From: Bacteroidota bacterium | GTDB taxonomy: Bacteria; Bacteroidota; Bacteroidia; Chitinophagales; UBA10324 | Length of the DNA stretch: 64,000 nt | Assembly: GCA_018267315.1 (NCBI GenBank) | Contig: JAFDYS010000033.1 | Coordinates: forward strand, 1-64,000 | Direction: 5' to 3' | Shown here: one piece after another, positions 55,756 to 56,420 of the stretch | Layout: each line of letters begins with the position of its first letter | How positions within the stretch are numbered: the first letter of the stretch is position 1 | Translations under genes and position numbers: made by a program | The notes under the pieces: generated by a model | Told to the model about the DNA's origin: nothing | The model's input: only the letters and a program-made list of their open reading frames with translations | Database searches by the model: none

Positions 55756-55805
55756 GCCGTTGTTGGTCCCCTGATCAACAACCGTTGCGTGAGCCCGGTT
55801 GCATC
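55756..55805 (+). repeat. REP hairpin, copy 1 (5' of the RAYT gene)
   Basis: Stem GTTGTTGGTC (55759-55768), loop CCCT, partner GATCAACAAC (55773-55782) with one G-T wobble, followed by the tail CGTTGCGTGAGCCCGGTTGCA. It ends about 24 bp before the RAYT start, so it lies in the gene's leader. Confidence 0.8.
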
Positions 55806-55828
55806 AACGGTTTCGTTATCTTCATGCA

Positions 55829-56373
55829 ATGGCAATGGAATCCGGCAAACTCTACTTCTTTACCGCTACCATTCTTAACTGGCAACATCTTCTCGCTACC
55901 GACGAGTGCAAACAGATCATAATTGACGAGTGGAAACGGTTGATTAAGCTTCACAGGATCACGCTCTATGCCTTTGTGATCATGCCAAATCATTACCACA
56001 TTATTTGGTCGGTAAGCGAGAAATACAATCCGGAGGACATTCAACGTGACTTTCACAAGTGGACCGCTAAACAATTAATTGCATTGCTTAAAACCAATCG
56101 ACCGCAAGAGCTGTCGCGATTCCATGTGGATGCCCCTGACCGTGCCTTTCAGATATGGGAGCGCAATCCGTTACCGGTTGAGTTGTACACGGAGGAGTTT
56201 ATTTGGCAAAAACTTGAGTACCTTCCTACCGGGAGGCAGGCATTCACAACAACCCGTGTCAGGAGAAGTGGAGATTGGTACCGTTGCCTGAGTTGTACCT
56301 TTATTCTTCTGCCCGGTATTATCTGCTGAACAAAGATGAATGGGGTTTTATCACACACATACAGGATGCTTGA
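55829..56373 (+). pseudogene. REP-associated tyrosine transposase (RAYT, Y1/HUH type), frameshifted
   Basis: Single-strand HUH transposase of the Y1 family whose members are tied to REP hairpins. The opening MAMESGKLYFFTATILNW, the HUH motif NHYH (H55, H57 in IMPNHYHIIW) and the helix WTAKQLIAL are normal. The catalytic tyrosine is Y131 in QKLEY. At 56222-56241 a 20-bp insert breaks the frame, so the direct reading ends in nonsense at 56329. Skipping exactly these 20 bases gives QKLEY-IHNNP…EKWRLVPLPELYLYSS to a stop at 56371-56373: 174 residues, the family's normal end. The start may also be the ATG at 55835. Inactive as written unless expressed as a truncated protein. Confidence 0.85.
56222..56241. 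mobile_element. 20-bp near-palindromic insert inside the RAYT gene
   Basis: The insert is CTTCCTACCGGGAGGCAGGC; its core CCTACCGGGAGG reads CCTCCCGGTAGG on the other strand, a palindrome with one mismatched pair. It lies between the TAC codon of Y131 and the conserved IHNNP codons. It adds two bases to the frame (20 = 18 + 2) and is probably a member of a short dispersed palindrome family. Confidence 0.75.
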
Positions 56374-56384
56374 ACAGCCTGGCT

Positions 56385-56420
56385 TCTGTTGTTGGTCAGG
56401 GGACCAACAACGGCTCTCGC
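56385..56420 (-). repeat. REP hairpin, copy 2 (3' of the RAYT gene, inverted)
   Basis: Perfect 10-bp stem GTTGTTGGTC (56388-56397) with GACCAACAAC (56402-56411), loop AGGG. Read on the minus strand it begins GAGCCGTTGTTGG like copy 1, so the two copies are inverted around the transposase. A decayed half copy (GACCAACAAAGGC, 56440-56452) follows. Confidence 0.85.

Follow-up and report, generated by a model that had tools for sequence, protein, structure and literature searches.

A probable decayed REPtron with GCC-tagged hairpins around a broken RAYT gene in a Bacteroidota genome

The window analysed in this study is a stretch of 64,000 nucleotides from contig C26 of a draft genome (G000) of 3.61 Mb, which its relatives place in the Bacteroidota. 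It very probably contains a decayed REPtron, that is, an HUH RAYT encoded between inverted copies of its own 27-nt GCC-tagged REP. RAYT is a 'domesticated' bacterial transposase, of which the window holds a broken copy, and the intact protein of the REPtron in this genome is probably that of a relative on contig C1. As assigned by motifs rather than by a tree with reference subclasses, the arrangement is of the REPtron type of Bacteroidetes TnpAREP subclass 2.6 (Bertels group 5). What is newly added here is a clean anatomy, in which the hairpins of both sides face outward and consist of a GCC tag, a stem of 10 bp and a pyrimidine loop.

Hairpins bracketing the RAYT gene

The features of the locus, all on the + strand, are the following.

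55756..55782, +: left REP-like hairpin (LE), with GCC tag, 10-bp stem and CCCT loop, in the RAYT leader
55829..56329, +: probable RAYT (TnpAREP, Y1/HUH) pseudogene ORF, FFTAT..MPNHYH..WERNP..LEY and then a frameshifted end (NF047646, PF01797)
56222..56241, +: 20-bp insertion, probably a palindromic repeat, with PTGRQA-type residues, just 3' of the catalytic Tyr codon
56242..56373, +: rest of the C-terminus of RAYT, still in its ancestral frame (IHNNPCQEKW...THIQDA)
56388..56414, +: right REP-like hairpin (RE), inverted, with stem, AGGG loop and GGC
56440..56452, +: degenerate copy, in direct orientation, of the 3' arm of RE and GGC (GACCAACAAAGGC)
57926..57952, +: solo REP without RAYT, with GCC and hairpin, loop in the CCCT orientation
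58010..58037, +: second solo REP, decayed, in direct orientation, ~84 bp further on

LE consists of GCC, GTTGTTGGTC, CCCT and GATCAACAAC (hairpin proper 55759-55782, with one G-T pair), and RE consists of GTTGTTGGTC, AGGG, GACCAACAAC and GGC (hairpin proper 56388-56411). Both have a 10-bp stem and a 4-nt loop, and RE is the mirror image of LE save for one base. LE is located in the leader of the gene and RE just past its original stop codon, which bears out an earlier note on this DNA that had described an inverted 10-bp-stem hairpin on each side, with the 5' copy in the leader. The hairpin proper of a third copy, the solo REP listed above, occupies 57929-57952. At ≤3 mismatches, three matches were observed in the window compared with 0.01 expected, and none of 100 shuffles reached three.

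The earlier note had described the REP as having a CCCT loop and a GCGTGAGCC tail. The loop was found in LE, but the tail, which lies 3' of LE and of two downstream copies in the window, is missing from the contig C1 copies and from other genomes, where stem, loop and GGC/GCC alone are held in common. The tail was rejected as a REP signature, being local to the left-end copies of the window, and the tag that defines the REP is the GCC on the 5' side of its hairpin. Directly upstream of the left REP, at 55724-55747, another hairpin of 8 bp (CGGGGTCTTCATCATGAGACCCCG) was observed, and a decayed version of it near 58075, beside the solo REP copies.

The broken RAYT gene

The window ORF matched NCBIfam NF047646 (REP_Tyr_transpos, E=5.4e-17) and Pfam PF01797 (Y1_Tnp, E=5e-4), in both cases under the curated cut-off. 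The intact C1 copy matched NF047646 with E=1.9e-20 and 73.2 bits, under the family cut-off of 80, and a profile match to TnpArep 4er8 was obtained with E=9.8e-5. HxH, W and Y-x-H-x-N-P are invariant in the alignment of the clade, which has an HUH motif, a single catalytic tyrosine and a YIxNP of RAYT type, and inverted REPs flank the gene as in the TnpAREP/RAYT family. The features of subclass 2.6 were also found, namely occurrence in Bacteroidetes, NH[LIV]H, WQ, YIH[QN]NP and hairpins without GT[AG]G, with some members of the clade deviating to WE or NHYH.

A Y1/HUH transposase of the RAYT family with NHYH and LEYIHNNP had been read in the window previously. A RAYT-like gene with MPNHYH does lie between the hairpins, but it is frameshifted: LEY is followed by a 20-bp insert, CTTCCTACCGGGAGGCAGGC (56222-56241), and then by IHNNPC in a different frame, so that LEYIHNNP is split because the insert shifts the frame after the Tyr codon, and the ORF stops at 56329 after a nonsense tail. 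Given the insert, the frameshift and the nonsense tail, the RAYT gene of the window is most likely a pseudogene and its protein most likely inactive.

Since a similar sequence is present on the same contig, the insert probably belongs to another family of small palindromic repeats. This second site of the near-palindromic 20-mer (CTTCCTACCGGGAGGCAGGC / CCTTGCCTACCGGCAGGCAGG), at G000:C26:86790-86804 (L290), seems, as read by eye, to be in frame (LPTGRQ) within a glycosyltransferase-like gene.

Related copies in the same genome

The earlier note had proposed a genome-wide search for the hairpin, and the hairpin was indeed found elsewhere, both in this genome and across the order. The stem pattern occurs at 11 places in G000 (≤3 mismatches), including five on C1, two on C5, three in the window and a weak one on C28. 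The two C5 copies are without RAYT. The C1 copies have the loop TCCC/GGGA and surround an intact RAYT at 123311-123823, which is ~63-67% identical to the window RAYT, lies between matching hairpins (TCCC loop) and reads KIEYIHNNPC at the break point. It is accompanied by partial duplications: one truncated N-terminal copy contains a second LE, and two C-terminal fragments carry RE. C-terminal RAYT fragments are also located at several other loci. About ten RAYT-like genes, of several subtypes, were found in G000.

An IS110-like transposase gene, recognised by eye, is located between RE copies of the RAYT element at G000:C1:123000-125800 (L012), near tandem GGAAGAAGACCCCGCGAGGACG repeats and with several truncated fragments of LE and RE around it. 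ATTT is not claimed as an insertion target at C1, because the LE copies there number only two. After RE, the G000 copies often have GGCNCTCGC and then the 3' arm again in direct orientation (ACCAACAARGGC; window 56440-56452, L012 and L013), and in a C5 variant with an altered stem (GTTGTCGGTG) the direct copy is altered likewise. This distal direct repeat was rejected as a general feature, since among the compared copies it occurs in G000 only.

Anatomy of RAYT-flanking hairpins across Bacteroidota

The sample comprised 80 loci in named genomes, nearly all of them Bacteroidota, and loci of relatives, giving 107 RAYTs, each searched over 250 bases to either side. Perfect hairpins of ≥9 bp were present upstream of 71, downstream of 64 and on both sides of 55 of the 107 RAYTs, and the hairpin density was 3.18/kb near the RAYT compared with 0.17/kb farther away. 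For the comparison of LE with RE, the strongest hairpin on each side was picked independently of the other side. Of 52 elements, 29 had the same 5' arm in LE and RE, compared with a mean of 3.2 and a maximum of 12 after shuffling, and in 21 the loops were exact reverse complements (shuffled mean 3.4, maximum 10). Pyrimidines predominated in the upstream loops (mean 81%) and purines in the downstream ones. The usual stem length was 10 bp. Within one element the stem and loop of the two ends match, whereas they vary from element to element, and similar RAYT proteins went with similar stems (Mantel r=-0.35, 0/2000, for RE; r=-0.24, 22/2000, for LE).

In most elements GCC is located 5' of LE and GGC 3' of RE; 5' of the hairpin foot, GCC was found instead of the canonical GT[AG]G. 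GGC faced outward in 18 of the 20 REPs that lie no more than 200 bases from a RAYT (p=4e-4, shared ancestry ignored). The matching of arms and loops and the presence of the tag therefore indicate that many RAYTs of the clade carry their own matched, outward-facing and GCC-tagged REP pair, the GCC taking the place of the GTAG of E. coli.

Co-occurrence of REP and RAYT in the order

The pattern TTGTTGGTS-N4-SACCAACAA-N-GGC was searched in 396 genomes of the order. It was present in 42 of them, as a dispersed repeat of low copy number (1-36 per genome for this pattern), and the reversed control was present in none. A clade RAYT at E≤1e-45 was detected in 24 of the 42 REP-positive genomes and in 48 of the 354 others (Fisher p=1.4e-9, shared ancestry ignored); at E≤1e-30 the counts were 29/42 and 108/354 (p=1.7e-6, again with shared ancestry ignored). 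Many RAYT-positive genomes have other stems, which are invisible to the searched pattern. A clade RAYT at E≤1e-30 was not detected in 13 of the 42 REP-positive genomes, with ≤8 candidates scored per genome and many of the genomes being drafts. The link between RAYT and REP among relatives that had been put forward in the earlier note holds as a strong enrichment but is not absolute, and its reading of the locus as a RAYT with inverted REP-like hairpins is supported by this enrichment and by the hairpins elsewhere in the genome and the order.

Dispersed 27-nt unit and in-frame copies

Solo copies in a sister genus (g7) have only the stem, the loop and, in nearly all cases, GGC in common, which amounts to 27 nt, and their flanks are unrelated. 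A second family, with a CGGTTCGTG stem, is dispersed in g7, where a genome has as many as 15 copies (≤1 mismatch). At several of 20 inspected g7 loci the repeat is part of a long reading frame and reads VVG[EQ][NA]TNNG.

The in-frame REP makes up nine codons (VVG-x-x-TNNG) inside the conserved enzymes CysS, PyrD, HolB, IspG and UbiD of one sister genus, the identities of which were checked against PDB, Pfam and NCBIfam. Orthologue alignments indicated that the orthologues are often without the repeat. In PyrD it is present in G010 only, with six orthologues lacking it (net 36 nt); in HolB it is present in G014, and G013 has what may be a decayed version; in IspG it is present in G013, G014 and G015 and absent in G006, G012, G000 and G007; in CysS it is present in G010 and G013; and in UbiD it is present in G010, while G013 has a shortened version at another place. 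The loops vary among orthologues, and therefore the exact insertion boundaries are unreadable in some cases.

A second dispersed in-frame repeat, LTPxPSPKERG, was observed in the same CysS loop in G014 (L254) and also in PyrD of G010 (L191). Small palindromes seem to gather in the REP-bearing gene loops as in hot spots, because other palindromes sit there in other species, such as AAGACCGACGCGGTT..AACCGCGTCGGTCT and TGCTCGATTACAAATCGAGCA (L277, IspG of G010; L285-L286, UbiD of G015 and G014).

It is tentatively proposed that the RAYTs of the clade may spread a distinct super-family of GCC-tagged REPs, the 27-nt unit of which is exactly nine codons long and may enter loops of essential enzymes in frame (VVG-x-x-TNNG). 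If true, core proteins would thereby receive short peptide insertions from a transposase-linked source.

Proposed mechanism and alternative explanations

TnpAREP cuts single-stranded REP beside the hairpin in one strand orientation, and the reading of tag and loop differs by group (PMC8266576). By analogy with the TnpAREP of E. coli and Stenotrophomonas, we infer hairpin recognition, cleavage and RAYT-driven spread of the REP, in which an intact RAYT would recognise one orientation of the hairpin as single-stranded DNA and bind to it, would read the stem, the loop and the 5' tag, and would cut next to the hairpin and join the REP elsewhere, seeding 27-nt copies. The outward-facing, tag-bearing and orientation-specific hairpins fit the TnpAREP cleavage model. 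Points that count against a REPtron are the broken window gene, the 13 of 42 REP-positive genomes without a detected clade RAYT, the low copy number and the lack of GT[AG]G.

Alternatively, the locus might be a small IS200-like insertion sequence or a TIRtron, in which LE, RAYT and RE move as a whole and the solo hairpins are the ends of dead copies. The partial duplications on C1 and the C-terminal RAYT fragments at other loci speak for such an element, and TIRs is the name given to inverted repeats beside RAYT-like genes (PMC3733652). Near-identical full copies within a genome, as in IS200/IS605, were looked for, and only the partial duplications at C1 were seen; the examined g7 solo copies, which share 27 nt amid unrelated flanks, argue against movement as a whole. 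Inverted ends are the arrangement of REPINs, and the subterminal hairpins of IS200/IS605 elements are not known to be mirror copies. This explanation is considered unlikely.

It is quite improbable that something else spreads the dispersed copies and that the RAYTs are merely hosts of the repeat. The REP-positive genomes without a detected clade RAYT and the several unrelated palindrome families in the same gene loops would be in line with it, but it is opposed by the covariation of stem and loop at the two ends of each element, which also track RAYT similarity and co-occur with RAYT. A purely regulatory role, in which the hairpins control translation of the transposase mRNA and terminate its transcription while similar stems elsewhere stem from common descent, is highly improbable: a leader and the position just past the original stop codon are common places for control hairpins, but the right hairpin of the window is not followed by a run of T, regulation leaves the GCC tag, the end-matched stem and loop and the copies inside unrelated genes unexplained, and the dispersed in-gene copies argue strongly against it as the sole explanation.

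Significance and comparison with known systems

RAYT function and REP spread are open questions, and the cited work centres on GTAG systems. A regular REP rule for Bacteroidota provides ready cognate and non-cognate pairs, with variants of stem, loop and tag, for recognition tests, and the in-frame copies in CysS, PyrD, HolB, IspG and UbiD, with same-genus orthologues lacking them, represent insertion events suitable for mapping onto a tree.

The earlier note could assign the REP to no named family. In the literature search, the GCC-hairpin rule and the nine-codon insertions were not found described, with the supplement of PMC6006769 possibly listing some of the hairpins; the arrangement of RAYT and hairpins itself is not unknown, because Bacteroidetes hairpins were reported earlier in that paper. 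As far as its account of TnpAREP subclass 2.6 (Bertels RAYT group 5) extends, the systems are alike in their occurrence in Bacteroidetes, a length of ~179 aa, NHxH, WQ/WE and YIH[QN]NP, and in flanking hairpins without GT[AG]G that have further copies elsewhere in the genome. The hairpins by subclass 2.6 genes are described there as 'atypical secondary structures', without GT[AG]G, weaker and found by manual inspection only (PMC6006769), whereas those analysed here are regular, with a GCC tag, a 10-bp stem, a pyrimidine/purine tetraloop and matched ends.

Intragenic REPs and the Rickettsia RPE (PMC3733652) are likewise small palindromes in coding genes that encode short peptides, but those are GTAG or CGTC repeats, whereas the 27-nt GCC unit comes from a group with its own RAYT. 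CGTC repeats have no dedicated transposase (PMC3733652), and the CGTC REPs were rejected as the same family as the GCC-tagged repeats, since the rules for tag and stem differ. TIRtrons, with their TIRYT (PMC3733652), resemble the present elements in having a RAYT-like gene between inverted repeats in genomes without GTAG REPs, but here each repeat is a hairpin and the GGGGWSAS motif was not seen by eye. In E. coli or Pseudomonas, REPs number in the hundreds, compared with 1-36 per genome here. The GTAG REPtrons of Enterobacteria, Stenotrophomonas and Marinomonas (PMC8266576) differ in having GT[AG]G where GCC is found here, in copy number, which is low here, and in phylum, and they are alike in their inverted hairpins with a short 5' tag and in the co-evolution of RAYT and REP.
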